A stretch of 64,000 nt of DNA, taken from the NCBI RefSeq assembly GCF_002270355.1, contig NZ_NJFZ01000019.1, positions 49-64,048 of the forward strand. Direction: 5' to 3'. This document shows positions 44,110 through 62,645 of the stretch, in pieces. The translations under genes and the position numbers were made by a program. This stretch comes from Flectobacillus sp. BAB-3569 (GTDB lineage Bacteria; Bacteroidota; Bacteroidia; Cytophagales; Spirosomataceae). The notes under the pieces are model-generated. The model made no database searches. It had not been told where the DNA came from and worked only from the letters and a program-made list of their open reading frames with translations. Numbering within the stretch: position 1 is the first letter of the stretch; each line of letters starts with the position of its first letter.

Positions 44110-44164
44110 ATGGATACACAGATAATTATCTTATTTTTAGGAACAAAGAAACTTTTTACTATAG

Positions 44165-44194
44165 CATATTTGTTGTACATTAGTAACAAATATG
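44165..44194. promoter_or_regulatory. Operator-like inverted repeat before the toxin-antitoxin genes
   Basis: CATATTTGTT (44165-44174) and AACAAATATG (44185-44194) are perfect 10-bp inverted repeats with a 10-bp spacer, ending 8 bp before the antitoxin ATG. Such sites are where antitoxin-toxin complexes of this type repress their own operon. Confidence 0.6.
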
Positions 44195-44202
44195 TTATAA
44201 CT

Positions 44203-44703
44203 ATGGAAAAGTCAAGCATAAAAACAGGACGTTTTGACCCAAAACTCAGCATTAAACGTGCTCGTGAACAGAAAAAAGTCACCCTTGGGTCAACATTGGT
44301 AACCCCCACGCATACCTACACATGGAGTTCAAGCATGGAACGCTTAAACATTCTCCGTGAAGGGATTCCTTATGAGTCAATCGAAGTATTGAGTCAGCGC
44401 ATCAATACCTCTGTCAAAGATATTTTGCAGTTGATTGATATGCCTCAAACTACCTACAATAAGAAAAAACGAGAGCAAGCGCTCCTAACAGGTCGTGATA
44501 GCGAAATTGTTTTGTTGTCTATTGAACTGCTCGATTATGGTATTGAGGTATTTAATCAGGAAGAAGACAAGTTTCAGCGTTGGCTTAAGAAAAGTAATAT
44601 TGCGCTTGGCGGTGTTACCCCCGAAAGTTTACTAGACTCTACCACAGGTATTCAAGAAGTGATGAATTGCCTCAACCGACTTGAATACGGAAATTTAGCT
44701 TAA
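44203..44703 (+). CDS. Xre/MbcA/ParS-type antitoxin
   Basis: A 166-residue cytoplasmic protein started at MEKSSIKTG (ATG 44203), because the open frame before it runs through the repeat and the operator. N-terminal helix-turn-helix-like part (MERLNILREGIPYESIEVLSQRINTSVKDILQLIDMPQTTYNKKKR) and a C-terminal DUF2384 toxin-binding domain (IELLDYGIEVFNQEEDKFQRWLKKSNIALGGVTPESLLDSTTGIQEVMNCLNRLEYG). It neutralises the RES toxin and likely binds the inverted repeat just upstream. Its stop overlaps the toxin start by one base. Confidence 0.9.
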   Translation: MEKSSIKTGRFDPKLSIKRAREQKKVTLGSTLVTPTHTYTWSSSMERLNILREGIPYESIEVLSQRINTSVKDILQLIDMPQTTYNKKKREQALLTGRDSEIVLLSIELLDYGIEVFNQEEDKFQRWLKKSNIALGGVTPESLLDSTTGIQEVMNCLNRLEYGNLA

Positions 44704-45170
44704 TGAAAGTTTATAGAATCGAACGAGAAAAGTATCTGTCCACCACGCTACAGGGGATTGGAGCAGCGCTTAGTAAAGGTTTTCGTTGGAATAGTCAAAA
44801 TACCTATTTGGTTTATACCGCCGCTACTCGCGCATTGGCAATGCTCGAAGTAGCCGTTCACCTCGATTTGAGTGAGGATTTACCCAATGATCGGTATTAT
44901 GTAGAAATAGACATTCCCGACGATATAACTATTTTAGAATTAGCCAATGAAGATTTGCCTGAACAATGGGATGCAAAACCTCCATTGTTGGAAACCCAGT
45001 ACATAGGCGACGATTTTGTTAGAAGCAATAGTGCTGCTGTACTCAAAGTACCAAGTAGCATTGTGCCACCAGAATATAATTACCTTATCAATCCCAATCA
45101 TCCTGAAGCTGCCAAAATCAAAGTAATTTCAACGCAGAAACTCGCTTTTGATAAACGACTTAGGGGGTAA
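44703..45170 (+). CDS. RES-family toxin
   Basis: A 155-residue toxin with the family's Arg, Glu and Ser regions: VYRIEREKY and GFRWNSQNTYLVYTAATRALAMLEVAVHL at the front, and SNSAAVLKVPSSIVPPEYNYLINPNHPEAAKI at the end. RES toxins degrade or modify NAD+ and arrest growth until neutralised. TAATG overlap with the antitoxin means coupled translation. All key segments are present, so it looks functional. Confidence 0.9.
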   Translation: MKVYRIEREKYLSTTLQGIGAALSKGFRWNSQNTYLVYTAATRALAMLEVAVHLDLSEDLPNDRYYVEIDIPDDITILELANEDLPEQWDAKPPLLETQYIGDDFVRSNSAAVLKVPSSIVPPEYNYLINPNHPEAAKIKVISTQKLAFDKRLRG

Positions 45171-45667: not shown

Positions 45668-46591
45668 ATGATAAAAATATCTCGGGTATATAGTCTCTTG
45701 AAGCAAGGAAAAAGAAGCAATTTGGAAGATTATATATATCCCTCTTCGCCCCAATTAGGAAAAATATTCAGCAGAATATATATCGTTTGTGATGGCGTAG
45801 GCGGTGAGACTAAAGGAGAAATCGCAAGTAAATTGGTAGCTGAGACATTTGGAGAGATGTTATCCTCAATGAGTAACATTACAAGAGAGGATATTATAAA
45901 TGTACTTGAAAAAGCAACTTTAAGGATTAAGGAGTATATCGATGTTAATCCCGAGGCTATTAATATGAGTACGACGCTTACGATGGCTGTTATCAACTCC
46001 AATGAGATATTACTTGCATGGTGTGGAGATAGTAAAATTATACATTTTAACGCAAAAGAGATAAAATGGAAGAGTTTAGACCATAGTCTCGTACAACATT
46101 TAATAAATATAAATGAAATATCAATTGAAGAAGCAAAGAAACATCCTCAACGAAATGTCATAACAAGATGTGTTAATAAAGATACTCAAAAAGAGGATTT
46201 AGATTTTCAAGTCATTTCAAAAATTGAAAATGGCGATTATTTGATGTTAGCAACAGATGGTATCTTCGAGTACATGGAGATAAGTAATTTACCACATATT
46301 GCTCAAGACAAACAAGTAGATAAAAGTGAACTAATTGATGCATACTGCTCACACGAAACGAGAGATAACTACTCCATGTATCTGCTATCAATTAATAAGC
46401 CTAAAAATCCAAAACTTCTCAAGACTTTACTCTTACTAATTTCTATTATGTTGCTAGCAGGGGTACTAAGCTGGCACGTAGATCGTGCTCCTAAAAGGAA
46501 GAAGCAACTGCCTACGCTAGGTATTGCGAAGCAAGCCACTGCACAAATACCTATAATCATAGAAAATGACACTAATAAAACCCTAAAATAA
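45668..46591 (+). CDS. Membrane-anchored PP2C-type Ser/Thr phosphatase
   Basis: A 307-residue protein. The catalytic domain (1-242) has the PP2C metal-site motifs: R16..NLED (D21), VCDGVGG (D42, G43), STTLTMAVI, AWCGDSK (D121), ATDGIFEYM (D197) and RDNYSMYLL (D233). A single transmembrane helix at ~249-269 (KTLLLLISIMLLAGVLSW) is followed by a ~38-residue basic tail. The catalytic part is cytoplasmic. It would reverse phosphorylation made by the kinase encoded 30 bp downstream, a classic antagonistic pair. First gene of an 11-gene same-strand cluster. Confidence 0.88.
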   Translation: MIKISRVYSLLKQGKRSNLEDYIYPSSPQLGKIFSRIYIVCDGVGGETKGEIASKLVAETFGEMLSSMSNITREDIINVLEKATLRIKEYIDVNPEAINMSTTLTMAVINSNEILLAWCGDSKIIHFNAKEIKWKSLDHSLVQHLININEISIEEAKKHPQRNVITRCVNKDTQKEDLDFQVISKIENGDYLMLATDGIFEYMEISNLPHIAQDKQVDKSELIDAYCSHETRDNYSMYLLSINKPKNPKLLKTLLLLISIMLLAGVLSWHVDRAPKRKKQLPTLGIAKQATAQIPIIIENDTNKTLK

Positions 46592-46621: not shown

Positions 46622-48265
46622 ATGGATTTTAAAAGTAGATATATCTATAATCTAAAAGAAGACTTAATTGGTAAGGGAGGTTTTGCCAGAGTATACAAAG
46701 CGCAAGATACACTCCTCGACCGATCTGTAGCCATCAAGGTTTTTAACAAATCAAATAATGGCTACTACACTGTACTTGAGGAGATTAAAAAGGTAATAAA
46801 ATATGAACATCCTAATCTAATAAGATATTATGATGTAGCATTGTTAGATAATACCAATGCTTTTGGAGAACGTGAAGAACTTCAGATCGGTATTATGGAG
46901 TTAGCTAATGCAGGTGATTTAAAGACTTTTGTTCTTGAAAATCCTCAATCGCCTCTAATCCTTGATCTACTCAAACAAGTATTACTAGGTCTAGGGTTTC
47001 TTCACAAAAAAGGTATTATTCATCGTGATCTAAAACCTCAAAATATATTATTAGTAAAGGAAGGAGACTGCCTAACTGCTAAGATATCAGACTTTGGAAT
47101 TAGTCGTAACGTAGAGGCTAATACTAATAGTGCATCATTGACTATTGGAACAATAGAGTACATGGCTCCTGAACAGTTTAACCCTGCACGATATGGGATA
47201 AATGGTAAGATATCTACTAATGTGGACATTTGGAGCTTCGGGATAATGTTATATGAATTACTTGTAGCAGAACCGCCTTTCGGTCAAAGGGGTGGTAGTA
47301 CCACTGCAGAACAAATCATGAACTCTATCCTTACAGCCCAGCTTCCCCCAAAAATTGACTCAATCAAAGAACCATTTAAGAGTATAATAAAAAAATGTTT
47401 GATAGCAGATGCAAATCTAAGAATTCGATATGCAGAAGATCTCCTTCCTTTCTTCAATGGCAATAGTTTTAGTGCTTCAAGGTTAGATGAAACCGATACT
47501 TTGATGCTGCATAAAGGTAACAATAAAATTGCACCAGTAGTCAATGATGAAACTGAAACACAAATTTTATCACCCCTTATCAATAGCCAAGATACCATTA
47601 CATTACCAATTTCAATAAAGTCAGATGCAACACAAATCCTTGGAGAAAAAACTTTTCAGACTAATAAGCAACCCAAAAATATTATCAAAGATAAAGTAGC
47701 AGGTGCTCATACAAAAGAAAAATTAGCCTCCCAAAGCATTAGTAAAGCATCCCCAAAAAAACCATCAATCTTAAATCTAAGTAAGGTTCAAAAACTAATA
47801 GGTGTAATAGTAGGTCTAAGCATCGCAAGTATTCTCTTTTATTATATTTTCCAACCTGAAAATATTCACGAAAAAGCACAGCTATTGGCACATGAAAAAC
47901 GTTACGATGAGGCTATACTGCTATTAAAGCAACATCAAAACGATAAAGCACAATCCGCTAATAACCGTATTCTTGAACAACTATATCTTGCAAAAGGAGA
48001 TACAATGAATGCCTTTCTACTCATGCAAAAATCATTTGCCAAAAGTGACTTTCAAAATGCGTATTTGCTAGGTCAATTATACTACTCGGGAAAGTTCACT
48101 AAACAGGATTTCAGCATGGCTAAAAAAGTATTTGAGAAAATAGAAAAAGATGATAGAGCACAAACGATGCTAGGGAATCTCTATTTTATGGGTCTTGGAG
48201 TTAAAAAAACTATTCCAAAGCCATCCCATATTATCAGAGAGCATCTAAACAAGGTAATTCTGTAG
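46622..48265 (+). CDS. Transmembrane Ser/Thr protein kinase with Sel1-like repeats, 3' frameshift
   Basis: The kinase domain (residues ~8-280) is complete: GKGGFARVYKA P-loop (17-27), AIK lysine K39, HRDLKPQN (134-141), DFG (157-159), APE (182-184) and DIWSFGIMLYELL. After a Ser/Thr-rich linker comes one transmembrane helix (~392-411, LIGVIVGLSIASILFYYIF) and a Sel1/TPR-like region (AYLLGQLYYSGKF, TMLGNLYFMGLGVKK) that would be periplasmic. At the A7 run 48203-48209 the frame is lost and ends at 48265. With one more A it would continue as NYSKAIPYYQRASKQGN to a stop at 48420. The catalytic part is unaffected. Partner genes are the PP2C phosphatase upstream and the FHA protein downstream. Confidence 0.88.
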   Translation: MDFKSRYIYNLKEDLIGKGGFARVYKAQDTLLDRSVAIKVFNKSNNGYYTVLEEIKKVIKYEHPNLIRYYDVALLDNTNAFGEREELQIGIMELANAGDLKTFVLENPQSPLILDLLKQVLLGLGFLHKKGIIHRDLKPQNILLVKEGDCLTAKISDFGISRNVEANTNSASLTIGTIEYMAPEQFNPARYGINGKISTNVDIWSFGIMLYELLVAEPPFGQRGGSTTAEQIMNSILTAQLPPKIDSIKEPFKSIIKKCLIADANLRIRYAEDLLPFFNGNSFSASRLDETDTLMLHKGNNKIAPVVNDETETQILSPLINSQDTITLPISIKSDATQILGEKTFQTNKQPKNIIKDKVAGAHTKEKLASQSISKASPKKPSILNLSKVQKLIGVIVGLSIASILFYYIFQPENIHEKAQLLAHEKRYDEAILLLKQHQNDKAQSANNRILEQLYLAKGDTMNAFLLMQKSFAKSDFQNAYLLGQLYYSGKFTKQDFSMAKKVFEKIEKDDRAQTMLGNLYFMGLGVKKTIPKPSHIIREHLNKVIL

Positions 48266-48420
48266 CGATGTACTCTCTAGGGTTAGCTTATATGAATGGC
48301 GCTGGGATTAATCAAGATCAACAGAAGGCACTTGATTTGTTTTATAAAGTAATTCAGAAAAACGACAATGCAGACGCTTCAAATGCAGCGAAAGCTGCAA
48401 TACTTAGTTTAAATAAGTAA
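48266..48420 (+). pseudogene. Displaced C-terminal Sel1 repeat of the kinase
   Basis: In the frame shifted by one base the sequence reads GNSVAMYSLGLAYMNGAGIN, then QKALDLFYKVIQKNDNADAS, ending at TAA 48418-48420. This is a typical Sel1 repeat continuing the kinase's periplasmic region. It is only reached if a base is added at the A7 run. Confidence 0.75.
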
Positions 48421-48482: not shown

Positions 48483-50462
48483 ATGGCAATGACAGAAAAT
48501 CAGATATTTGAAGAGCTCACTCTCATTCTTAACCAATCAATTAGTGTACGTGATAGGATTAATGCAATTCTCGCACAGCAAAGTCATGTTCTAGAAACTA
48601 TCACCATGCAAGAAAATAGCCTCAACACTTATTTAATTGAGGCTAAGAGTAGTTCAGACATTGCCCGGCAGTCAGCATTAGATGCTAAAAGTGATGGGCA
48701 AATCATAGAACAAATTAAGCAAGAAGCCTCTGCTGACTCACAACAAATTGAACAGTTCAAAAACGATGTTAGAGCAGATGCTTTAGAAGTAGAACAAGCA
48801 AAAAATCAAGCAAAAGCTGATGCTCTAGAGGTAGAACAAGTCAAGAATCAAGCGAAAGCTGATGCGCAAGAAGCTGAGCAAGCAAAAAATCAAGCGAAGG
48901 CGGATGCGCAAGAAGCCGAACAAGCAAAAAATCAGGTAAAAGCCGATGCGCAAGAAGCTGAACAAGCAAAAAATCAGGCAAAAACCGACGCACAAGAAGC
49001 TGAACAAGCGAAAAATCAGATAAAGGCAGATGCTCAGGAAGCTGAACAAGCCAAGAATCAAGCGAAGGCCGATGCACAAGAAGCTGAACAAGCAAAAAGT
49101 CAGGCAAAAGCTGATGCGCAAGAAGCTGAACAAGCAAAAAATCAAGCGAAAGCTGATGCGCAAGAAACTGAGCAAGCAAAAAATCAAACAAAAGCTGACG
49201 CACAGGAGGCTGAACAAGCAAAAAATCAAGCAAAGGCGGATGCACAAGAAACTGAACAAGTAAAAAATCAAGCAAAGGCGGATGCGCAAGAAACTGAACA
49301 AGCGAAAAATGATGCAAAAAGTGACGCGCAAGAAACTGAACAAATAAAAAATCAAGCAAAATCGGATGCGCAGGAGATAGACTCAATTAAAGAACAAGCA
49401 AAGGCGGATGCTCAGGAAGCTGAACAAGCGAAAAATGATGCCAAAAGTGACGCGCAGGAAGCAGAGCAAGCAAAAAACCAAGCAAAGGCTGATGCTCAGG
49501 AAGCTGAACAAGCAAAAAACCAGGCAAAAAATGATGCCCAGGAAGCAGAGCAGGCAAAAAATGATGCGAAAAATGACGCGCAAGAAGCTGAACAGGCAAA
49601 GAATGATGCGAAAAATGATGCGCAAGAAGCCGAACAGGCAAAAAATGATGCGAAAAATGATGCTATAGAAGCTGAGCAAGCAAAAAATCAAGCTAAAGCT
49701 GATGAGCAAGAGACAGAACAAGCCAAGAATGAGGCAAAGGCTGATGCGCAAGAAGTTGAACAGGCAAAAAATGAAGCACGTGCCGATGCACAAGAGGCTG
49801 AAAATTTAAAGAATGAAGCAAAAAATGATGCAAATGCAATTGAACAACTAAAACTTGAAACTAAAGCTGATGCACAAGAAGCTGAACAGGCAAAAAATGA
49901 CGCTAAGTCAGATGCAACAGAAATAGAACAAATAAAAAGTGACGTTAAGGCAGATGCACAGGAGACAGAACAAGCAAAAAATGATGCTAAAGCCGATGCT
50001 CAAGAGGCAGAACAAGCAAAAAATCAAGCTAAAGAGGATGCAAATTTAACAGATAGTGCTCGCCAAGCTGCTGAAGATGATGCAAAATCAGCAGAAAAGG
50101 CTCGTCAAGATGCTCAAACAGATGCTACTTCCACTGAAAATGCAAAAAAACAAGCTGAAGCTGATGCCACAGAAACTGAAAATATGAAAGTACAATCACA
50201 ACAAGATGCAGCGGAAGCTGAAACAGCTAAAGAGCAAGCAAGATCGTATGCTCAGCAGGCGCTAAGCTATTCCGAAGCTACCTTGATGCACAAAAACTCA
50301 GCAACAAGTTTATTAGCTACCATTGAGGCAGATGGAAACTTAGTAAAAAACCATCTTAATACCATAGACAGTCTTGAGGATGCGGTTAGAAGGATGTCTC
50401 TCATGGCAGCACAGTATCGCGATAGCGCCCATCATTGTGCAAATATGGCATGTCATTATTAA
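48483..50462 (+). CDS. Alanine-rich coiled-coil protein, ~37 near-identical 14-residue repeats
   Basis: A 659-residue cytoplasmic protein; ATG 48483 (MAMTENQIFEEL) chosen as the first good start. Residues ~70-590 consist of about 37 copies of a 14-residue unit, consensus QAKADAQEAEQAKN, which is exactly two heptads with alanine at the core positions. This predicts one long, highly charged Ala-coil rod of roughly 75-80 nm if fully helical. Ends are different: an N-terminal helical head (ILNQSISVRDRINAILAQQSHVLETI) and a C-terminal part with His and Cys (YRDSAHHCANMACHY). No signal or membrane segment. I recognise no named family; scaffold or filament is the likely role. Confidence 0.8.
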   Translation: MAMTENQIFEELTLILNQSISVRDRINAILAQQSHVLETITMQENSLNTYLIEAKSSSDIARQSALDAKSDGQIIEQIKQEASADSQQIEQFKNDVRADALEVEQAKNQAKADALEVEQVKNQAKADAQEAEQAKNQAKADAQEAEQAKNQVKADAQEAEQAKNQAKTDAQEAEQAKNQIKADAQEAEQAKNQAKADAQEAEQAKSQAKADAQEAEQAKNQAKADAQETEQAKNQTKADAQEAEQAKNQAKADAQETEQVKNQAKADAQETEQAKNDAKSDAQETEQIKNQAKSDAQEIDSIKEQAKADAQEAEQAKNDAKSDAQEAEQAKNQAKADAQEAEQAKNQAKNDAQEAEQAKNDAKNDAQEAEQAKNDAKNDAQEAEQAKNDAKNDAIEAEQAKNQAKADEQETEQAKNEAKADAQEVEQAKNEARADAQEAENLKNEAKNDANAIEQLKLETKADAQEAEQAKNDAKSDATEIEQIKSDVKADAQETEQAKNDAKADAQEAEQAKNQAKEDANLTDSARQAAEDDAKSAEKARQDAQTDATSTENAKKQAEADATETENMKVQSQQDAAEAETAKEQARSYAQQALSYSEATLMHKNSATSLLATIEADGNLVKNHLNTIDSLEDAVRRMSLMAAQYRDSAHHCANMACHY

Positions 50463-50481
50463 CCGTCATTTCTCCAAAAGA

Positions 50482-52584
50482 ATGGATATAGCAAGCTTAC
50501 TAACAAAAGCACAAGAAACATATCAACAGTTAGTGGATATTGAGGATTTCTTGTCAAAGCAAAAGTCTGATTTCAAGCCGAAAGACATGAACCTACTGTT
50601 AGGGCAACTTAAGCAGTATAGTATTGTCGCTAAAGATTTTGCTCAAAATACAGAAATGTTAAAGCAGGAGTCGTTGGCAGATGCACAACAAATTGAAATT
50701 GCTAAGCAAATATGTACTGCAGCTAGACAAGAAACTGAATCTGCCAAAAGTCAAGCAATGGCAGATGTAATAGAGACGGAGGAATTAAAAAATCTCGCAA
50801 AGTCTAATGGAGTCGATATTGATGCTCAGAAAAATAATACTTTGAGTGATGCTACAGAAGCTGAAATACTAAAAACAACCTCAATTGCCTACGTTCAAGA
50901 ATCCGAACAAGCTAAAAATCTGGCGGTTGAAAGTGCTCATGAAACAGAATTTTCCAAGAATTCTACTTTGTCTGACGTACAAGAATCTGAGCAATTGAAG
51001 AACGTAATATCTGCTCATGTCCAAGAAGTTGAACAAATCAAAACTCAAATATTAAGCGAAGTACAAGAGGTTGAACAAATCAAAAATATTACAAAAAACG
51101 AAGCTACAGAATCTGAAAATGCGAAAAATGACGCCAATGCGAGTAAAATAGAAAGTGAAGAATTTAAAAACCTAGCACTTTCAACAACTCAAGAAACTGA
51201 GCTCCTAATAAATGCAGCAAAATCAGATACGCAAGAAATTGAAATATTGAAAAACTCTGCAAAATCAGATCAACAGGAAAGTGAAAAAGCAAAAAATGAT
51301 ACCAGAAATGAGGCGCAGGAAACAGAACAAATTAAGAATACTTCAAAATCTGATGCAAATGCTGTACAACAAGCAAAAACTATAGCTAAAGAAAGTGCTC
51401 AAGAAGTCGATTTAGTAAAGAATCAAGCAAAATCTCATGCTCAAGAAACTGAGCAAGCGAAAAATGAGGCAATCAGTGACGCGAATGAATGTGAACAAAA
51501 TAAGATAGTTGCCAAAAATAAGGCTACCGAATCTGAACAAGCTAAAAATGAGGCTAAAAGCAACATGTTAGCAGCAGAACAAGCTAAAAATGAAGCTCAT
51601 GGAAATGCTTCTCAAACTGAACAGGCAAAAAACGAAGCAAAAAACGAAGCAAAAGAAGCTGATTTAGCAAAAACCAATGCAAAAGAACGTGCACAGGAAG
51701 CTGAACAACTCAAATCATTAGCTAAAAGTCATGCTAATGAGAGCAACTCGGCCAAGAATCAAGCTAAAGATGATGCCAAAGAAACAGAACTTATCAAAAA
51801 TAATGCTAAAGCACATTTTGCTGAAATAAAACAAGTTAAAGGTGAGGTATTCAGTGATGTTACACAAATAGAACAAGAAAAAAATATTGTAAAATCACTA
51901 GCTCAAGAAATAGATACAATCAAGTCGGAAGCATTAAGTGATAGTAAAGAAACAGAACAACTGAAAAATCAAGCAAAATCATTGGCATCTGAAACAGAAC
52001 AGCTGAAAAATGATGCTAATGCAGACAAGCAAGATGTTGAAACGAACAAAACAATAACTCTGGCACTTGCAAAAGAAATAGAAAATATAAAACAAGAGAC
52101 CCTAAACGATGCTCAAGAAACCAATCAGATAAGAAGCGCCGCCCAAACTTTTGCTTCAATGGCAGAACAATCAAAGTTCTCAGCAGCGAATGATAGCACA
52201 CAAGCTTCCAAAGCTAAAGAAAGTGCTGAATCTGATGCAAGCGAGACTGAAAGTTTTAAGAATAAAGCTCAAACTGCAGCAAAGGAAACAGAGCTCTCTA
52301 AAAGAAATACTCAACTAGACGCCCAAGAAACAGATGGGTTTGCAAATGATGCATCAAGTCAAATGTTAAATGCAGAACATCTTAAAAATGAAATAGAACA
52401 GCTTCAAAAGCACTCATCAGAGCTAGATGCTCGAGCATATCAGCATGTACAACAAGCAACCTCAATACAAATGAGTGCTCAAATTCAACTAGACGATTCT
52501 GAAAACTCAATGCACATTGCCCAAGAAGAAGCTCAGCGTGCTCGCGAGTGTAGAATCAGAAGAGCTTCCCTATGGAATTTTTAA
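50482..52584 (+). CDS. Second coiled-coil protein, diverged 14-residue repeats
   Basis: A 700-residue cytoplasmic protein starting at MDIASLLTKAQETYQQL (ATG 50482), 19 bp after the previous stop. It is a paralogue of its neighbour: the same 14-residue register (e.g. AKSHAQETEQAKNE, AKNKATESEQAKNE, AKSDANAVQQAKTI) runs from ~80 to ~640, but units have diverged and more Ile, Leu and Val fill core positions. Distinct head (DFLSKQKSDFKPKDMNLLLGQ) and basic tail (RARECRIRRASLWNF). The pair may co-assemble. Function unknown. Confidence 0.8.
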   Translation: MDIASLLTKAQETYQQLVDIEDFLSKQKSDFKPKDMNLLLGQLKQYSIVAKDFAQNTEMLKQESLADAQQIEIAKQICTAARQETESAKSQAMADVIETEELKNLAKSNGVDIDAQKNNTLSDATEAEILKTTSIAYVQESEQAKNLAVESAHETEFSKNSTLSDVQESEQLKNVISAHVQEVEQIKTQILSEVQEVEQIKNITKNEATESENAKNDANASKIESEEFKNLALSTTQETELLINAAKSDTQEIEILKNSAKSDQQESEKAKNDTRNEAQETEQIKNTSKSDANAVQQAKTIAKESAQEVDLVKNQAKSHAQETEQAKNEAISDANECEQNKIVAKNKATESEQAKNEAKSNMLAAEQAKNEAHGNASQTEQAKNEAKNEAKEADLAKTNAKERAQEAEQLKSLAKSHANESNSAKNQAKDDAKETELIKNNAKAHFAEIKQVKGEVFSDVTQIEQEKNIVKSLAQEIDTIKSEALSDSKETEQLKNQAKSLASETEQLKNDANADKQDVETNKTITLALAKEIENIKQETLNDAQETNQIRSAAQTFASMAEQSKFSAANDSTQASKAKESAESDASETESFKNKAQTAAKETELSKRNTQLDAQETDGFANDASSQMLNAEHLKNEIEQLQKHSSELDARAYQHVQQATSIQMSAQIQLDDSENSMHIAQEEAQRARECRIRRASLWNF

Positions 52585-52673: not shown

Positions 52674-53378
52674 ATGACTCGAAGTGAAATTATTGACTTC
52701 TTAAGCCTAGCTCAAGACATAACCAATGAAGAGCTATTGAAGGCTATTCAAGAAAAGGAAGGGTATTTTAAAAGCCTTATCAACAATGCTCCAACTAACC
52801 TATTGAAGAAAGTTTATGAAAGAAATATTGAGAAACTTAGCGAATGTAGGGATTTTCTGAAAAATACTTCTTCAAATAATAGTATAAATAATTTAAAGCC
52901 AGATATCAGTATAAAAAATGATATTCCTAAAAGCTATTTAGACTCTACAACAGCTCCCACATTTAATCGTGACCCAGCATGGCTTATTAGGCATACTGAA
53001 AATAGTGCTACGATATCTTTTATCCTAAAAGAAGGCATCAACACCATAGGTAGGCTAACCAAAGACTCCAACCTTAATATAGCTATAGAGGATGACATGT
53101 TTGTTAGTAGAAAACACGCTATTATCGAAATAAAAGAGAGTGACTATATTTTATACGATGTTGGCGACTCTGGACTTCCTGCCTCAAAAAATGGGGTTTT
53201 TGTGAACGGTTCAGATAAGAAACTGATGGGAAAATACTCCTTGAGAGAAGGGGATACTATTCAATTTGGAAAGACAAAATTTGTCTTCAAAATCAATACT
53301 CATCGCAACCTTGAAGAGGTAGTCAATGAAGTTAGTAATACAAATTACATGCGAACTGTAGTAATCAACATATTATGA
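52674..53378 (+). CDS. FHA-domain phosphopeptide-binding protein
   Basis: A 234-residue cytoplasmic protein. N-terminal ~1-65 is helical with no family I recognise (IDFLSLAQDITNEELLKAIQEKE). The FHA domain (~105-215) has all binding residues: G126-R127 in TIGRL, S145 and H148 in SRKHA, and N173 in KNGVFVNG. It should bind phosphothreonine, probably on the kinase or on the coiled-coil proteins. Its TGA overlaps the ATG of the next gene (ATGA), so the two are translated together. Confidence 0.9.
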   Translation: MTRSEIIDFLSLAQDITNEELLKAIQEKEGYFKSLINNAPTNLLKKVYERNIEKLSECRDFLKNTSSNNSINNLKPDISIKNDIPKSYLDSTTAPTFNRDPAWLIRHTENSATISFILKEGINTIGRLTKDSNLNIAIEDDMFVSRKHAIIEIKESDYILYDVGDSGLPASKNGVFVNGSDKKLMGKYSLREGDTIQFGKTKFVFKINTHRNLEEVVNEVSNTNYMRTVVINIL

Positions 53379-55087
53379 CACATAATTTAGATCCCATTTT
53401 TGAGAAAATAAATTCTATCCAAAAAGATATTGGATACACAAATCAATATGGCTTTTTTGAGCTTATCAAAAAAGATTCCGAAAGTATTGAAAAACAACAA
53501 ACTCTCCCGATTGACCTAATAGCATCGGAGAACGATGATAAATTACAAAACTACTTGATTAATCAATTAGAAAATCATGGAATAGAGGTAACTCTTAAGA
53601 AAATCGATCCAAAACCAATTGCTTATCCTTCACTTATTGCGAACATCCTTATGATTTTTTTTGAGGATTCTTCTGCAGAAGCAATTATGGATATACTGGC
53701 GTCTCAACGCAATCATTACAAAAAAGTATATCTCGTCAACAACGTCAACTCACAGATTCTTATTGATCAAATTCTTGATTTCTGTAAAATAAATCTAATC
53801 ACCAGCCAATCCATATCTTTTCAGTCTGAAGATGATATTGATATTTTCATCAAAACAATTGATAAACATAAGCTACTATTACTTTCTAAACTGAGTACTC
53901 TCAAGCCCGTTGTAGAATATATTAACCAAATTGTTAAAACTGAGAATAGAATTTTACATAGTCAAAAAAGCTTACTAATTCAGGATACGATGTATCTGAA
54001 AAAAGCAGATTCAAATAGTTTTTCAGAAATCAATAATACAGTTAGATATTCTATTCTCAAAAACCTCCAAGAAGTAGAGAAAGGTGTAAAAATTAAATAT
54101 GAAGAGTTTAGTAAACCTAATTATGGCTATTTCAGCGAGCGAATAGCTCATTTCATTAACCTATTAAAATACAATGATTTAAATCAAATCGATGTTGCAG
54201 ACAAATACGAAAAAATTGAGCTTGGACTAAATGATAATATCACACAAGAGTTTTTCAAATTTAATGAAACAGAGTTATTGAAAGAATTTCGAAAAGATTC
54301 AGCGCTATTAAAGACAATTACACAGTCCACATTTGATGAACTAAACCAACTCTTAAGTCGATTTAAACTCCCTAAAATGACCATAGAGAAATTTGTACTC
54401 CCTGACCTTAATCCAACTTTAATGGTACAAGGCAATAACTATATGCAAAAAAACTTTAGAGGGGAGATTACTAAAGAAGGTCGAAATGAATACCTAATCG
54501 CTTTGAGAGACTACACTGGTATCATTATGGTAATTGTTGGTCTATTAATGCCTCTCAACCTACTCATTCAAGGTGTTGACTTTTTTTCAGATGGCGAACA
54601 AGTGCCCAAAACCCTAGCTGAGGTTAACAACGTGTATGAATATCTGGCTTTTTTCGCTAAAAAAACTAAACTAGCCATTCTATTAATTACCTCAATACTA
54701 TCGGGTATTCTGATCTGGTATGGTGTGATTGACCTTAAAGTGAGGATTCCTCGTAAGCGTAAAGAGGAACGAGAACGAGAAACTCAAAAGGCAAAAGACC
54801 ACCTTCAATCAGAAGCAAAAAGAATCTACAACGATAGCTATAAAGATTGGGTAAATAACCTTTCAAACTACATTAGAGAACTTACTCAGAATATCACATT
54901 TGAGGTAGATACTATCTTAAAAAACGCTACTAAGAAAGCCCAAGATGTGAGCAACAACAAAAAACAACAATTATCTAATAGTCAGTCTATTATAGACAAT
55001 AAATTAAGAAACTTACAACTTGCTGAGAAAACTTGTGAAAGTCTACAAAAAAGTATTTCAGAACAAAAAGACAGAATTATAATATGA
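53375..55087 (+). CDS. Unknown protein with central membrane hairpin
   Basis: A 570-residue protein I cannot assign. Residues 1-370 are mixed alpha/beta then helical (e.g. ANILMIFFEDSSAEAIMDIL; LKKVDSN-like helices). There are two transmembrane helices (~380-400, IIMVIVGLLMPLNLLIQGV; ~431-452, AILLITSILSGILIWYGVI), then a long charged coiled coil (KRKEERERETQKAKDHLQSEAKR). The layout resembles bacterial dynamin-like proteins after their GTPase, but there is no P-loop. Coupled to FHA upstream and Hsp70 downstream by 4-bp ATGA overlaps, hinting at a complex of the three. Confidence 0.75.
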   Translation: MTHNLDPIFEKINSIQKDIGYTNQYGFFELIKKDSESIEKQQTLPIDLIASENDDKLQNYLINQLENHGIEVTLKKIDPKPIAYPSLIANILMIFFEDSSAEAIMDILASQRNHYKKVYLVNNVNSQILIDQILDFCKINLITSQSISFQSEDDIDIFIKTIDKHKLLLLSKLSTLKPVVEYINQIVKTENRILHSQKSLLIQDTMYLKKADSNSFSEINNTVRYSILKNLQEVEKGVKIKYEEFSKPNYGYFSERIAHFINLLKYNDLNQIDVADKYEKIELGLNDNITQEFFKFNETELLKEFRKDSALLKTITQSTFDELNQLLSRFKLPKMTIEKFVLPDLNPTLMVQGNNYMQKNFRGEITKEGRNEYLIALRDYTGIIMVIVGLLMPLNLLIQGVDFFSDGEQVPKTLAEVNNVYEYLAFFAKKTKLAILLITSILSGILIWYGVIDLKVRIPRKRKEERERETQKAKDHLQSEAKRIYNDSYKDWVNNLSNYIRELTQNITFEVDTILKNATKKAQDVSNNKKQQLSNSQSIIDNKLRNLQLAEKTCESLQKSISEQKDRIII

Positions 55088-56594
55088 ATTTAGGAATAGA
55101 TTTAGGATCAAGTAATACTTTGGTTGCCACTCTTACAAAAGATAGAACACCAATAATCATACCTGATAACCTCGATAAAAATGCGGAAACCACGCCAAGC
55201 GCCATTATTATAGATAACAACAAGGTTATAGTGGGGAGTTTAGCAAAAATATTTATCAGGCATATCCAGATAAAAACCTTTATACCTTTTTCAAAAGACA
55301 TTTTGGATCTTATATTCCATTAGGACTTACGCAACAACAGCTTCCTATTTTTAGTGAAACATTAGCCTCAATCATGCTTAAAAAGGTGGTATATGATGCG
55401 AAACTCTTCATTAATGAGGACATTAACAAGATTGTTGTAACAGTACCTTCGCATTACAATGACCTACAACGTAGATCTGTTATAGAAGCAGCCAGACTTG
55501 CGAATGTTCAACTCACTTCCTTATTAGATGAACCTATTGCCGCCGCTTTGTATTATATCGGCGAAAATAACGCTTTAAACCAAGAGCTAATCCTGATTTA
55601 CGATTTAGGGGGCGGGACTTTCGATTTATCAGTCCTTACTAAAAATGGAGAACAAATTCACGTAGTAGCAAAAGGAGGAATCAATAATATTGGAGGAGAA
55701 GAATTTGATCAAATCATCATCAACAAGATAAAGCAAGTCTATTACAGAACCTTTGGTATTACTATCAAAGACTCTATTTATAACAATAATCTTCTCAAAA
55801 TATTAGCCGAAGAATGTAAAATAACCATCAATCAGACCAATCAAGGATTAGAAAAATGGTTCTACTTTGACAATCGATTCTTTAGAGTATATTTCGACAT
55901 AAAAGAATATAATACATTTGCCCTAGAAATCATTAGAAAAACGGAGGAATGTGTAAAAGATACACTGAAAAAATTGGGACTAAGTCTCCCAGACATCAAT
56001 CAAATTATTCTGATTGGTGGCGCTAGCAATAGTAAACTTCTCTATGAATATTGGCAAAAACAGATAAATACCGCATTCCAAAAAATTATCTATCACCAAC
56101 CGCTTACTAGTGTATCCAAAGGAGCTGCAATTTACGCAAATAGTTTCTCTAACGATCAGGAAGCATCTAAATCAAATCTTGATCTCAAAAATGTAAGTTC
56201 TTACAACATTGCCATCAAAACAAAAGAGTCTAGAGAACCTGAATTAATCATTCATAAAAATACACCATTGCCAGTATCAGGTAAAAAAATCTATGCTTTG
56301 GATACAAGAGCTAGAAGAACCGAACTTGAGCTATGCCAATACCTTGACTCTAAAGAATTTACTCAGCCTTTAGGCATAATTTCAATAGAAAACTCTTCCA
56401 TAAGTAGAGAATCTAGTATTGAATTAGTCATTGAGAATAAAGTTGATGGAACTGTAGGAATAAAAATCTTTAACCCCCATTCAGGAGCACCACTAAAGTT
56501 TGATTTCATTAATAATGATTCAGAGGCAAAATATGACTTCGTTCAGCAAAAATCACTTATTGACTCACTATTTATCAATAACCTTGTTGACTAA
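55084..56594 (+). pseudogene. Hsp70/DnaK-like ATPase, frameshifted at an A5 run
   Basis: The first part reads MNLGIDLGSSNTLVATLTKD, the phosphate-1 loop of Hsp70, but goes out of frame at the A5 run 55245-55249 and stops at 55323. Adding one A restores NIYQAYPDKNLYTFFKRHFG and joins the rest: DEPIAAALYYIG, YDLGGGTFDLSVL (phosphate 2), LIGGASNSKLL (adenosine). The repaired protein is ~503 residues: full nucleotide-binding domain, a beta substrate-binding-like domain, and no helical lid. Without a grpE or dnaJ nearby, it is more likely a dedicated chaperone or switch for this cluster than the housekeeping DnaK. Confidence 0.82.
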
Positions 56595-56606
56595 AATTTA
56601 AAAATA

Positions 56607-57239
56607 ATGGTAAAATCTTTACTTATTCTCCAAGTTATCTGGCTAATGTACTTTCCCTCATTAGGTCAGTCGCTACCTACTATAGAAAGTAACAGTAAAG
56701 TGACAAAAACTAAGACTGAAAAAAAGGCAAAGCCCTTAAAAGATCTAACACCTCCCAAAATTCACTCAATTGGGAAGCAGATAGATGGGTATTATGAGTA
56801 TTATACCTTAGATGAAGGACACCTTTATTCGGGTCTCTTGAAAAATGGTAAACCAAACGGATACGCGTTTATCTATTCGAAACTAGATACCTCTATAATC
56901 TTCGAGGGGCAAATAAATGATCAGGATGATATTTCTCGAAAAATAGAAGAAAATACAAAAGGGTATGAATATTACTTGGAAAAGGGTGAATCCGCCTTGA
57001 AGCAAGACCATAAACCTGTAGCGATAAATTCATTTAAAAAAGTTAAAACATTACTAGGAAACAAGGTATCTCAAAATACAAAGTGTAAAGAAATCATCAC
57101 ATCAGCCATTTCAAATGGAGATAAGTTTGCAGGAGTAGACGAATATAAAACTGCCCTTAGCTGGTATTTAATAGCACAATCCCTAGATAATAGTAAGGCA
57201 CTTCAAAATAAAATAAATCAATGTAAATCAAAGCTTTGA
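56607..57239 (+). CDS. Exported MORN/TPR-like small protein
   Basis: A 210-residue protein with signal peptide (MVKSLLILQVIWLMYFPSLGQ). Residues ~60-95 contain a MORN-type unit (GHLYSGLLKNGKPNGYAFIYS) and ~110-205 form two or three TPR-like helix pairs (YYLEKGESALKQDHKPVAINSFKKV; YKTALSWYLIAQSLDNSKAL). No catalytic motif. It is probably an adaptor in the periplasm. It follows the Hsp70 gene by 12 bp. Confidence 0.7.
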   Translation: MVKSLLILQVIWLMYFPSLGQSLPTIESNSKVTKTKTEKKAKPLKDLTPPKIHSIGKQIDGYYEYYTLDEGHLYSGLLKNGKPNGYAFIYSKLDTSIIFEGQINDQDDISRKIEENTKGYEYYLEKGESALKQDHKPVAINSFKKVKTLLGNKVSQNTKCKEIITSAISNGDKFAGVDEYKTALSWYLIAQSLDNSKALQNKINQCKSKL

Positions 57240-57284: not shown

Positions 57285-58379
57285 ATGAAAAATAAAAAAA
57301 CTCTTTCACTCTTTCTATTCATTATACTACTAACTACTAAGGTAAAAATGGTAGTTGCACAAGATTATATTTATACAAAAGATAATGAAGTCTATAGTGT
57401 CAAAATCACTCATTTCAACCCTACAAATATTGAGTATATTCTTGATAATTCAACATCAAAAACGACCAGAGCTCTTAGTGAAATAGCTTTAGTCATCAAT
57501 GATAGAGGATATATTATTTTACCCGAGGAATTAGAGTCTGAAAATCGAGAAATATTTATTAATGAATATCAGAACATAAAAAGAATTAGTGAGAAATACG
57601 ATATAATCCTTTACAAACAACCTCTCGAATCCGTTAGGTGTAATATTAGTTATGAATCTAACGAAATCGTTAATTTCAAAACCATAAAATCGGGAGATAG
57701 TCAAACAGAAAATAAAAAAGATTTATTGTTCATTCTCTACACCAATGGAAAGCATAGTTTTTTTGCTTCACCCACCTCTATTTCATTGTCTACACTAAAA
57801 AAGAAGCTACTTGAGAAGGCCGATATTAGCACAGCAACCACTCATACTACCACCACCCAAATCATTAAGCTGTCTAATGCTGAAATGGAGTCATACAGCA
57901 AAAAAGCTGAGTTAAAAGTAGATGGCTTTAGTAGTTTCTTAAACCTCATTGCAAACAAAGAATTGTCATCAGAGGAAAAAGATAAGGTGATCGAACAAGC
58001 TACAAAACTATTTACCCCTGGTGCAACCATACAGGTGTCATTCCGCAAGCCCGACGGTACAGTATCAGTGGCAACACGAAAAATTGAAGAGTATTTGAAG
58101 AAGTTAAAGCTATCTAAATTTAGTAGTGTTAAAATAGAATGGTCTGATATTCAATATATAGGAGATTTAAAACAAGAGGCAGATGGCAATTATTATGGTA
58201 CTATCACAGGAGAGCAACGATTTTCTGGATATAATAAAAATGGTAAGATTTCTTACAGTGATATTGTAAAAAAGGATGTTAAAGTAATGATTACGACCTA
58301 TAATAAAACAATTGACGCAGTAGAAAAACGTCAATGGGAGGTCTTTCTAGGTAATATTGGAATTGTAGAAAACAAATAA
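57285..58379 (+). CDS. Exported protein of unknown function
   Basis: A 364-residue protein; ATG 57285 gives the signal peptide MKNKKTLSLFLFIILLTTKVKMVVAQ, which decides the start. It opens DYIYTKDNEVYSVKITHFNPTNIEYILDNS, a beta-rich segment common in secreted Bacteroidota proteins, and ends in a beta domain (VSFRKPDGTVSVATRKIEEYLKKL). I do not recognise a family and see no enzyme motif. Conserved position inside the cluster is the main clue. Confidence 0.7.
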   Translation: MKNKKTLSLFLFIILLTTKVKMVVAQDYIYTKDNEVYSVKITHFNPTNIEYILDNSTSKTTRALSEIALVINDRGYIILPEELESENREIFINEYQNIKRISEKYDIILYKQPLESVRCNISYESNEIVNFKTIKSGDSQTENKKDLLFILYTNGKHSFFASPTSISLSTLKKKLLEKADISTATTHTTTTQIIKLSNAEMESYSKKAELKVDGFSSFLNLIANKELSSEEKDKVIEQATKLFTPGATIQVSFRKPDGTVSVATRKIEEYLKKLKLSKFSSVKIEWSDIQYIGDLKQEADGNYYGTITGEQRFSGYNKNGKISYSDIVKKDVKVMITTYNKTIDAVEKRQWEVFLGNIGIVENK

Positions 58380-58447: not shown

Positions 58448-61306
58448 ATGAAAAAATTATACCACGCATTACTACTAATAATCATTTACCTTAGCTCAAC
58501 AGCAACTATTGTTTCTCAAACTATTACCCAAAAAGAAAGCGAGGAAATCAAACTTTCTGCCAAGAGAAAAATTCAAAATGGATTTAAAGACTTACTAAAC
58601 TTTATCACAGATGAATCAATTGGTGATGCCGAAAAGCTAGCGACTATAAAGGATAGTTATTCAAATAGCAATATTCAAGTCTTTTACAATAGTCAGACTA
58701 TTTTAGAAGATGATATTAATCCCAACTATTACAATGGAAACAACATTCACGATCTTAATGTAGAAAAATACCTAAACGCTTTAGATATTCTCTACACCAA
58801 AAGTATCGAGAGCTCAATAGAAATAAACATCTTGAGTGTTTCAAACGTAAAACAGGTAGGAGGTACAATGTTTATTAAAGTATATTTTGAATGTCTGTTT
58901 AAAAATTCACATAGAACAATAAAAGTTGCCTATAAAAAGAATGATAGAGTTGCCGAACTAAAGGTTGAACATATAGGTAAAAAGTGGATAACCAACATCA
59001 CTCGTGTAGCATTCGGAAAAGTTAATGATGAAACAGGTAAAAATGATCTTGCCATAACACAGGTAGTCGAATCTGCCACCAATCAACCTAAAGAATCAGA
59101 AGTCATTCAAACCAACGAATCTCAAAAAGACGTCAATGAATTTAATCGTTTATTGGCAGATGCTGACGATGCCTTCAAGGCCAAAGAATATGATATTGCA
59201 CTACAGGCATACTCTGAAGTTCTAAAAAAGGACAGAGACGAATACGGTAAATCATTCTATATCAAAAAACAAATCTCTCTCTCGAAAAGAGAAATACAAA
59301 AAGAACAAGACCTAAAAAAACAAGAAGAGGAACGTCTAGCTCAAAAGCAAAAAGAGGACAATTACTTTAAAGTAATATTTGAAGCTAAAACTTTTGAGCG
59401 CAAACGATATTACGGAAAAGCTATTCAACAATACCAAGCAGCGTTTAGAATAATACCTGATTCAGCTATTCTATACCAGGAAACCATTAGAAATCTGAAT
59501 AAAGAACTAAGCCTAAAAACAGAAGCAGATGAAATGTTTTTAGCGGGAAACTTCAAAGAGCTGAAACGAAAATATGATGCCTATATCAAAAAAGATCAAT
59601 CCAACTCGGATTATTTCCTTGGCCGAGCAAAGTGCTCAATTCAACTAGGTGATTCTCCCAAAGCCATCCTTGAGGACTTGGACCAAGCGATTAGTCTTGA
59701 CTTTAGTAATACCTATGCTTTTAAAGTAAGAGCTGAGTTTTATACTTCTCAAAATAATATTCCAAAAGCCATTGCTGATTATACAAACTTTCTAAATATT
59801 GAGCATGATAGTGCATCTATCTATGCCATAAGAGCTACTTTAAAAACAAGAACTAACAATACCCAAGGAGCACTTGAAGATTATGAGAAAGCCATACAAT
59901 TGGATAAAAGAAACCCCAAATACTATTATGAACGAGGAATAATACATACGCAAAATAGCTCTTGGCAAAAAGCTATTACTGATCATACCGAGGCAATATC
60001 TATAGATCCAAAAATGGCTCAAGCCTATTACTACAGAGGAGAAGCTTATTACAATCTAAAAAAGTATAAGGAAGCTGGTCAAGATTTTTCCAGGGCGATT
60101 AGCCTACAAATTGATGATAATCTGGCTAATAATATTCGACAACATTCGGAGGAGTTTTTTCTAATCGGAGACAGAGCTCTTGAAAATAATGATATAGCAT
60201 TTGCCATATCAAGTTTTACCAACAGTGTTCTTATACTACCCTACAATTATAGATCGTGGTATAAGATTGGGGAATCATATCAAAAAGAAGGTAAACTACT
60301 TGAAGCAATAACAAACTACACAACTGCAATAAAATATAACGATTCTTATGATGATGCTTATTATGGACGCGGTTATGCAAAGTTTTATTTGAACAGATAT
60401 AAAGAGGCTCTTGAGGATTTCCACAAAGCCAACGAATTGGTAGGGAATTATTACAACGCTATATTTTACGAAGCTAGAACCCTCATGTTATTGAAAAATT
60501 TCAAATCAGCGATTTTACTATTTCAAAAAATTAAAATAGCAAAATCGACTATAGAAAAAAGTTACTCGAAAGATTTTTTTGCTAATACACATTTGTACTT
60601 GGGCATAGCAATGATTGAAGAAAAGTATATTGCAGAAGCTAGTACAGAACTAAGCTCGGCTATCAAGATAAACCCTTACTTGTCAGAAGCTTACTTTCAG
60701 AGAGGTCTAGTATATCTACAATTAAATAACTTGGAGTCTGCATTGAGTGACCTCAATCAAACAATCACGCTTGGACCAAACAATAGCCAGAAAGAAATGG
60801 CAATAGGTAACGCTTTGTATAATATGGAGAACTACAGCCAAGCTACCAATGCTTTCCAAGAATCTATTAATCTTGATACCCTGAAATCCAATTACTATGA
60901 AGCCCATAAAATGAAAGCTTACTGTTTCTTCAAACAAAATCAACATGCAGAGGCTGCCCAGACATTTGTTAAAGCAATAGAGTATAAATCTAAACAGGAC
61001 GATTCAAGCATTTATCGAGATTTGACAGTGAGCTATCTATTTGATGGTCAAAGCTCAAAAGCATTATCAGTCATTGAAAATGTACTTAAAACAGATCCAG
61101 AAAATGTAGAAATCAATTATCTATTAGTATGTTATTATGTACAAACTCAAAGTATGGAAATAGCCTTAAAAATTTTAGAGAAACTCTTCACTCTCAATGC
61201 AGTGGACAATAACTTCATAAAAAAGGATAGGTTAATTAATACCATAGATAGTAGCTTTAAAACTTCTAAGGACTATAAAGCTCTTTTAAAAAGAATCGCA
61301 AAATAG
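58448..61306 (+). CDS. Large exported TPR protein
   Basis: A 952-residue protein with signal peptide (MKKLYHALLLIIIYLSSTATIVSQ). Residues ~30-195 form an alpha+beta domain of unknown type (DLLNFITDESIGDAEKLATIKD ... TIKVAYKKNDRVAELKVEHIGKKW). From ~230 to ~940 there are at least 15 tetratricopeptide repeats, e.g. GALEDYEKAIQLDKRNPKYYYERG and AYYYRGEAYYNLKKYKEAGQDFSRAI. It is a protein-binding platform, presumably periplasmic. The spacing and order place it with the OmpA-like gene 25 bp downstream. Confidence 0.85.
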   Translation: MKKLYHALLLIIIYLSSTATIVSQTITQKESEEIKLSAKRKIQNGFKDLLNFITDESIGDAEKLATIKDSYSNSNIQVFYNSQTILEDDINPNYYNGNNIHDLNVEKYLNALDILYTKSIESSIEINILSVSNVKQVGGTMFIKVYFECLFKNSHRTIKVAYKKNDRVAELKVEHIGKKWITNITRVAFGKVNDETGKNDLAITQVVESATNQPKESEVIQTNESQKDVNEFNRLLADADDAFKAKEYDIALQAYSEVLKKDRDEYGKSFYIKKQISLSKREIQKEQDLKKQEEERLAQKQKEDNYFKVIFEAKTFERKRYYGKAIQQYQAAFRIIPDSAILYQETIRNLNKELSLKTEADEMFLAGNFKELKRKYDAYIKKDQSNSDYFLGRAKCSIQLGDSPKAILEDLDQAISLDFSNTYAFKVRAEFYTSQNNIPKAIADYTNFLNIEHDSASIYAIRATLKTRTNNTQGALEDYEKAIQLDKRNPKYYYERGIIHTQNSSWQKAITDHTEAISIDPKMAQAYYYRGEAYYNLKKYKEAGQDFSRAISLQIDDNLANNIRQHSEEFFLIGDRALENNDIAFAISSFTNSVLILPYNYRSWYKIGESYQKEGKLLEAITNYTTAIKYNDSYDDAYYGRGYAKFYLNRYKEALEDFHKANELVGNYYNAIFYEARTLMLLKNFKSAILLFQKIKIAKSTIEKSYSKDFFANTHLYLGIAMIEEKYIAEASTELSSAIKINPYLSEAYFQRGLVYLQLNNLESALSDLNQTITLGPNNSQKEMAIGNALYNMENYSQATNAFQESINLDTLKSNYYEAHKMKAYCFFKQNQHAEAAQTFVKAIEYKSKQDDSSIYRDLTVSYLFDGQSSKALSVIENVLKTDPENVEINYLLVCYYVQTQSMEIALKILEKLFTLNAVDNNFIKKDRLINTIDSSFKTSKDYKALLKRIAK

Positions 61307-61331: not shown

Positions 61332-62645
61332 GTGATTTTACGCTTGCTATCCATTTTACTTTTTCTGATATTCAATCATACAAATTTGGTCTTAGGTAGT
61401 CCTCTAGATATCAAAATAAGAGGACTACTTATTGATGCCATTACTACAAAATCAGTATCAGCAAATATCTATTGGGCTTATTCAAGTAATTCAACACTTA
61501 TTTGGAGTAATCCTACTTTTTCTGATGGGCATTTTGACATTAAATTAAAAGATAAAGCCATCAAGCTGAGAATTGAAGCAACGGGATATGAAAGTGTTAT
61601 AATAGATTTATCACTCGATAAATCAAAGACTGCTAATTTGTTTTTAAAGATTCCCTTACTTAAACAAACCACGCACCAACTCAATAAAATATTTTCTCAG
61701 TCAACGACCAAGTCAGATAAAACAAAAAAAACTACCGATAATAAACATCATAAAGTTACAAATATTGAATTTATAGCAGTTAATGGTCTTACACATGAGC
61801 CACTTGCAGCTACTTATAAGTTTGTACCTACAAATTTTTCAAAATCAGAACATTACACAACCAGCGTCGAAAATCCTCATTTAGCATTAACATTTAATGG
61901 AAATGATATATATGCGGTAGAAATCGCTGCTGATAATTTTCAAACTTTTTTAGGTAATCTTATCATTGATAATTTAGATAGTCGCACACATCATGATACT
62001 ATTTATTTAGCTAAAGAACTAGTTTTTCTGAATATAATAACTCAAAAAGTAGGAACTTTAGATGATATTTATATCTCAAAATATGGCTCGAAAGCACCAC
62101 ATTTATTTCAAAAATTAAGCTTTAGTCATGAAATAGCCTACGAAACCCTAGAAAAGAACGAAAGGTATCAATTATATATCATAAACGATAAAAAAGATAC
62201 TATTTCACATACTTTTCAAGCTACCCACAATATTTATCAAATCCTTAGCGACACACTTTCAAAATCTATAAATCATCCTAATCAAAATTACCATAAATCT
62301 ATTTTATACTTTGAAGCAAGTGATTTTCATCTCAAACCAGAGTCATATGATCATTTGAGAGAGGCCATCAAGAGAGCAAAATACCAAAAAGAATTATTAA
62401 TTGATATTTATGCTTACACTGATAATTTAGGCGAGTTTTATGCAAATCTGTACCTTTCTGAAATCAGGGCGATGTACATAAAAAATACGTTATCCGCCGA
62501 GGGAATATCAGATAAACGAATTAGATGTATACCTATGGGAAGCAAAAACCCTATCTCCAAGAATAAGGATGAAGCGTCTAGAAGTCAAAATAGGAGAGTA
62601 GAAATAATATTATACAATCCTACAATATCAAAAAATAGCAAATAG
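61332..62645 (+). CDS. OmpA-like peptidoglycan-binding protein
   Basis: A 437-residue exported protein; the start is GTG 61332, giving MILRLLSILLFLIFNHTNLVLG. Residues ~25-110 and ~145-220 are carboxypeptidase-regulatory-like beta domains (IRGLLIDAITTKSVSANIYW; VNGLTHEPLAATYKFVP). Residues ~320-435 are an OmpA C-terminal domain with LLIDIYAYTDNLGEFYANLYLSEIRAMYIKNTL and SRSQNRRVEI, which bind peptidoglycan. No beta-barrel is visible. It anchors the system to the cell wall. Last gene of the cluster. Confidence 0.85.
   Translation: MILRLLSILLFLIFNHTNLVLGSPLDIKIRGLLIDAITTKSVSANIYWAYSSNSTLIWSNPTFSDGHFDIKLKDKAIKLRIEATGYESVIIDLSLDKSKTANLFLKIPLLKQTTHQLNKIFSQSTTKSDKTKKTTDNKHHKVTNIEFIAVNGLTHEPLAATYKFVPTNFSKSEHYTTSVENPHLALTFNGNDIYAVEIAADNFQTFLGNLIIDNLDSRTHHDTIYLAKELVFLNIITQKVGTLDDIYISKYGSKAPHLFQKLSFSHEIAYETLEKNERYQLYIINDKKDTISHTFQATHNIYQILSDTLSKSINHPNQNYHKSILYFEASDFHLKPESYDHLREAIKRAKYQKELLIDIYAYTDNLGEFYANLYLSEIRAMYIKNTLSAEGISDKRIRCIPMGSKNPISKNKDEASRSQNRRVEIILYNPTISKNSK

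Follow-up and report, generated by a model that had tools for sequence, protein, structure and literature searches.

Two adjacent genes for long repetitive proteins, here called rod1 and rod2, lie at 48483-52584 on the forward strand of a 64,000-nucleotide stretch of the genome of Flectobacillus sp. BAB-3569 (the window, to which all coordinates refer). Rod1 (48483..50462, +) has 659 amino acids and consists of a head (residues 1-72), 37 consecutive 14-residue units in one register (residues 73-590, 518 residues; 42-bp units at 48699..50252, +) and a C-terminal tail. Rod2 (50482..52584, +) has 700 amino acids, with a head (residues 1-54), 42 consecutive units, again in one register (residues 55-642, 588 residues; diverged 42-bp units at 50644..52407, +), and a tail. 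A longer rod2 frame starting at a TTG at 50374 overlaps rod1 and is superfluous; the ATG at 50482 is preferred. The rods are part of a cluster of eleven genes, which lay outside the account given in the original prediction made from this sequence. As argued below, the two proteins may pair into a cytoplasmic coiled-coil scaffold that is tied to the cell envelope.

At lag 14, rod1 has a self-identity of 0.608, whereas 1000 shuffles gave at most 0.179 at any lag from 5 to 39; the corresponding values for rod2 are 0.300 and 0.143. At the DNA level, Tandem Repeats Finder (TRF) reports a 42-bp array in rod1 with 29.9 copies and 77% matches. In 28 of the 37 rod1 units, at least 9 of the 14 positions agree with QEAEQAKNQAKADA. 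The unit common to both proteins can be written as x-E-[A/T/S/I/V]-E-x-[A/L/I]-K-N-x-A-K-x-D-A; its residues E4, K7, D13, and A14 are retained in 35-36 of the 37 rod1 units, and rod2 shows the same consensus. The two neighboring 14-residue-repeat rods that had been predicted are thus present at the expected place, and their shared register and similar lengths were borne out as well.

The arrays of the window genome contain no proline, and glycine is absent from the rod1 array and occurs four times in that of rod2. The hydrophobicity spectrum of every rod peaks strongly at 3.5 residues, with positions 3, 6, 10, and 14 of the unit forming the favored face. With regard to an Alacoil (Ala zipper), which would have Ala at one core position of every heptad, alanine is frequent at two of these positions in rod1 (column 3, 20/37; column 10, 30/37); in rod2, it occupies column 10 in 26 of 42 units, and column 3 is a mixture of Thr, Ile, Ala, and Ser. 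The register is constant across all units of both rods, without any stutter. These properties are compatible with a two-heptad coiled coil, albeit not a textbook one, with Ala as the main core residue and one polar core position per unit. The heptad-based rod of the original prediction is upheld in its 3.5-residue periodicity and its proline-free arrays but is imperfect, as each unit has four core positions and one of these is almost always Asp in rod1. A fully helical array would extend over about 77 nm in rod1 and 87 nm in rod2. A single alpha-helix (SAH), for which dense E/K salt bridges between residues i and i+4 would be expected, is not indicated, as the consensus QEAEQAKNQAKADA contains five charged residues among its 14 and lacks pairs of opposite charge at i,i+4 spacing. 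Both proteins are hydrophilic and rich in Ala, Lys, Glu, and Gln, with net charges of -61 (rod1) and -43 (rod2), and hydropathy analysis revealed no signal-peptide-like or transmembrane (TM) segment in either. They are almost free of cysteine, except near their C-termini, where Cys residues (652 and 657 in rod1, 690 in rod2) are kept in three species. Neither rod1 nor rod2 has a match in Pfam or NCBIfam, and the matches of rod2 in the PDB are at chance level, none of them being convincing.

The distribution of the rods is narrow. Among 222 genomes of the family, convincing rods were found in three, all of one genus: the window genome, Flectobacillus longus LYT7W (G037; contig NZ_JASHIC010000009.1, 220,124 bases), and a further genome, G001. 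Sampling 390 genomes of the order revealed no additional convincing rod. Weak hits in three genomes (G108, G095, and G820) found no support as rods, since the open frames seen at these loci are low-complexity 7-residue or unrelated ones. In G108, frames with MICLVAS-like 7-residue repeats occur at several places (loci L026 and L034) and are probably antisense or other frames of heptad-coding DNA. Within the genus, five genomes were compared, and both the rods and a 570-residue protein encoded in the same cluster are missing from the other two. The latter protein was also unmatched in a plasmid collection, and a literature search yielded no paper on these rod proteins. Identity to the two relatives, F. 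longus and G001, is 81 and 76% for rod1, 76 and 70% for the 570-residue protein, 70 and 65% for the FHA-domain protein of the cluster, and 61 and 47% for rod2. The non-repeat N- and C-terminal segments of both rods are conserved in the three species.

In the original prediction, the likeness of the rod1 units was attributed to homogenization by unequal crossing-over. To assess silent sites, the codons at residues that agree between neighboring rod1 units were compared with synonymous shuffles within columns (500 shuffles). In the window genome, 0.390 of these codons differ between neighbors vs. 0.417 after shuffling, and 42 of the 500 shuffles were as low. In F. longus, a slight deficit was found (0.319 vs. 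0.351; 17/500), and in G001 there was none (0.364 vs. 0.355). Similarly, the silent-site similarity of adjacent units barely exceeds that of distant units. The silent codon variety that had been noticed among the rod1 units is thus real and, with silent sites close to saturation, their likeness is mostly old and maintained at the protein level. Unequal crossing-over is not supported, since a column-preserving shuffle gives a silent difference similar to that between adjacent units; as judged from these sites, the rod1 units are held alike by protein-level selection without recent homogenization. For rod2, matched units of the window genome and F. longus are 58% identical vs. about 40% when the alignment is shifted by whole units, and no indel was found over 700 residues, which indicates that the rod2 units keep their own identity by position. 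Thus, whilst rod1 and rod2 are probably paralogs, as had been proposed, the sequence comparisons explain the contrast between them by a stronger constraint on rod1 and not by another stage of homogenization.

The lengths of rod1 and rod2 are 659 and 700 residues in the window genome, 700 and 701 in F. longus, and 758 and 758 in G001, and hence agree in two of the three species. In the three-species alignments, all gaps within the repeats are multiples of 14 residues, i.e., 42, 14, and 42 in rod1 and 14, 14, and 28 in rod2. As compared with F. longus, G001 has four additional units in both genes, and rod1 of the window genome is three units shorter. The fixed length that had been assumed for the second gene is contradicted by its 700, 701, and 758 residues, and both genes change by whole 14-residue units.

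The eleven genes of the cluster are on the same strand and separated by short gaps or overlapping, and their order is identical in all three carriers among the five genomes of the genus. The gene following the cluster is the same in the window genome and F. longus and different in G001. Upstream of the rods are the genes for a PP2C phosphatase (45668..46591, +; Pfam PP2C, 1e-9), with a C-terminal TM segment as deduced from hydropathy of the F. longus ortholog, and for a Ser/Thr protein kinase with one TM segment and Sel1 repeats (46622..48420, +). Downstream follow the genes for the FHA-domain protein (52674..53378, +; Pfam FHA, 2e-14, and alignment), the 570-residue protein, which has two TM segments and a long C-terminal helix (53375..55087, +), a short Hsp70-like protein (55084..56594, +; 503 residues in the relatives), proteins of a 211-residue type (56607..57239, +) and a 365-residue type (57285..58379, +), both with a hydrophobic N-terminus, a TPR protein of about 950 residues (58448..61306, +), and an OmpA-domain protein (61332..62645, +; Pfam OmpA, 3e-15), which is present in F. 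longus and G001 as well. The short helical-looking N-terminal segment of the FHA protein was considered as a degenerate J domain, for which neither Pfam nor the PDB gave support. The two-TM protein has no family match in Pfam or NCBIfam; a Foldseek search with its model (pLDDT 43) gave hits of a Rossmann-like type for its N-terminal domain and other low-quality hits, which were not used. By eye, a domain of the 365-residue protein seems to recur in the TPR protein, within its N-terminal part.

Two genes of the cluster are frameshifted in the window genome. The kinase frame is broken by a one-base deletion in an A7 run (48203-48209), downstream of which the Sel1 part is read in a different frame up to 48420. 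In the Hsp70-like gene, the frame is broken by a one-base deletion in an A5 run (55245-55249). Both frames are intact in the two relatives, where the kinase has 617 and 621 residues. The frameshifts could be assembly errors in this draft of 183 contigs or they could represent true pseudogenes, and if they are real, the module may be decaying in this genome. Directly upstream of the cluster, inspection by eye suggests an Xre/RES-type, toxin-antitoxin-like pair of genes (44110-45170), which is preceded by two tandem copies of a 115-bp sequence (43886-44109; 89% alike). Further upstream (2029-42665), a long series of apparent genes for pectin- and rhamnogalacturonan-degrading enzymes, including pectate lyase-like and glycoside hydrolase-like ones, was likewise recognized by eye.

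Parts of the cluster occur elsewhere. A kinase, a PP2C phosphatase, and an FHA protein also make up the threonine-phosphorylation pathway (PpkA, PppA, and Fha1) of type VI secretion systems (T6SS). In Pseudomonas aeruginosa, PpkA and PppA act on Fha1 (PMC6213207). The 365-residue protein was found in 20 of the 36 genera of the family and, in several of these, it is encoded together with kinase, PP2C, FHA, OmpA, and TPR genes but without rods. In one genome (G119), this set adjoins genes for a ClpV-type AAA protein, a VipA match, and TssC (E 2e-101). At three loci (L066, L057, and L068), kinase, PP2C, FHA, 365-residue, OmpA, and TPR genes are found next to those for ClpV-type, TssB, and TssC proteins; these loci apparently encode a phospho-regulated Bacteroidota T6SS with uncharacterized periplasmic partners. 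With one TssC query, no match was obtained in any of the five Flectobacillus genomes, whereas G119 and Spirosoma panaciterrae (G210) were positive. Thus, the Flectobacillus cluster shares with the T6SS module the presence of kinase, PP2C, and FHA together and the 365-residue/OmpA/TPR trio, whereas the rods, the two-TM protein, and the short Hsp70 are additions, and it looks like a relative of the T6SS phospho-module that is used without a T6SS.

The genome of S. panaciterrae also encodes a distant relative of the two-TM protein (NZ_KB893216.1; E 5.6e-5 with the Flectobacillus profile, 19% identity). The divergent neighbor of this gene (L022:1-923) encodes a protein with 14-residue units, such as EHDAADALKNTQAH, ESQATTQAEHIHTL, and EAAALESSQKADEY, that are quite different in sequence from those of the rods, and which is truncated by the end of the contig after 307 residues. 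Kinase-FHA and FHA proteins are encoded nearby. This case supports a functional link between the two-TM protein family and 14-residue-repeat rods.

Taken together, we propose, with a probability of roughly 45%, that rod1 and rod2 form a paired, cytoplasmic coiled-coil scaffold or filament that measures about 75-95 nm, is controlled by phosphorylation, and is attached to the envelope. The two proteins, almost entirely alpha-helical, would run alongside each other in a heteromer whose chains match in length, constituting a rod of about 75-95 nm or a filament of such rods. The membrane-bound kinase and the PP2C phosphatase would set the phosphorylation state of the complex, which the FHA protein would read, and the short Hsp70 might assemble or remodel its parts. 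Through its long C-terminal helix, the two-TM protein would anchor the rods at the inner membrane, and a connection to the outer layers would be made by the TPR and OmpA proteins. We favor this pairing because of the unbroken register, the lack of proline, the 3.5-residue peak, and the helical, though low-confidence, AlphaFold2 (AF2) model of rod2, and also because of the synteny in three genomes, the indels in multiples of 14, the lengths of 700/701 and 758/758 residues, and the selection at the protein level. The lack of signal and TM segments in the rods points in the same direction, as does the 14-residue-repeat neighbor that the two-TM relative has in Spirosoma.

Several observations weigh against this proposal. 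Of the two d-type core positions, position 13 holds Asp in 36 of the 37 rod1 units, which is unusual for a stable coiled coil. AF2 models rod2 as almost wholly helical, yet with several breaks and at low confidence (pLDDT 58), and the continuity of the helix is therefore not proven. Relatedness between the heads and tails of rod1 and those of rod2 is undetectable. The two rods are unequal in the window genome, where they differ by three units, and, with only three species to compare, the coupling of their lengths is not proven either; the inequality might be peculiar to the window genome because the module is possibly decaying there, if the frameshifts are real, which is a speculation. Finally, any direct link of the rods to the kinase or the FHA protein is hypothetical. 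A more far-reaching version, in which rod1 and rod2 would depend on each other as obligate partners in a cytoskeletal filament of two proteins, with lengths co-evolving in whole 14-residue steps and controlled by kinase, phosphatase, FHA protein, and Hsp70 on a module shared with T6SS and used without it, is improbable.

Alternatively, each rod could form its own homopolymeric, intermediate filament-like cytoskeleton that sets a curved or ring-like cell shape, as crescentin and the Ccrp proteins of Helicobacter pylori do, with the phospho-cluster merely regulating it. Long helical cytoplasmic proteins with a non-repeat head and tail would suit such a role. However, curved cell shapes are common in the family, of which nearly all other genomes, as well as two of the five in the genus, lack the cluster, and the register lacks a stutter. 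A precedent is provided by the Ccrp proteins, which assemble into filaments, influence the helical shape, and differ in size from strain to strain (PMC2776988), and cells of Spirosoma linguale, the type species of the genus that contains the two-TM relative, are horseshoe and ring-like (PMC3035282). On balance, such homopolymers seem unlikely. It is also improbable that the rods are spacers or rulers, i.e., single rods of a set length that hold two parts of an envelope complex apart without forming a filament. The change of array length by whole units only and the equal lengths of rod1 and rod2 in two species would agree with such a function, whereas the differences between species of up to 7 units in rod1 and 4 units in rod2 would not, and we know of no architecture that would require a set length of the rods. 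Least probable are hydrophilic stress proteins, late embryogenesis abundant (LEA)-like or partly disordered, that would acquire their fold upon drying or binding and not before. Although the composition and net charge described above, the Asp in the putative core, and the low AF2 confidence would fit, the unit has 14 residues, in contrast to 11 in LEA proteins of group 3, and the two-heptad periodicity, the conserved heads and tails, and the strict co-occurrence with a signaling cluster of conserved order argue against them.

If rod1 and rod2 do pair as proposed, partners that change in identical steps would test how the two chains of a coiled coil keep register while growing or shrinking. They would also offer a case of possible control of a structural polymer by a bacterial Ser/Thr kinase module. 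In addition, a kinase/PP2C/FHA/OmpA/TPR module that is adjacent to T6SS genes elsewhere occurs here in genomes where TssC was not found.

Among other known systems, GTPase/Hsp70-centered conflict systems include Hsp70 proteins without a peptide-binding domain, FHA and TPR proteins, and coiled coils (PMC7159879), and thus have types of parts in common with the Flectobacillus cluster, in which no GTPase, vWA, or effector domain was identified. The closest analogs, without any claim that the rods belong to either group, would be crescentin and the Ccrp proteins on the one hand and honeybee silk on the other. Like crescentin, Ccrp59 and Ccrp1143 of H. pylori, and FilP, the rods are long, helical cytoplasmic proteins with a non-repeat head and tail, and they share variation in size with the Ccrp proteins (PMC2776988). 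In contrast, they are built from a strict 14-residue tandem unit, are encoded by two adjacent paralogs within a kinase/phosphatase/FHA/Hsp70 cluster, and lack the stutter that is present in the rod of crescentin and of intermediate filaments. The honeybee silk proteins F1-F4 form a heterotetrameric, Ala-rich coiled coil with small core residues and matched coil lengths of 24 heptads (24 nm) (PMC12284834). They are eukaryotic and extracellular, with four chains and an Ala core without a regular Asp; yet, as an analogy only, they resemble the proposed rod1-rod2 pair in combining several Ala-rich coils of matched length with small residues in the core.

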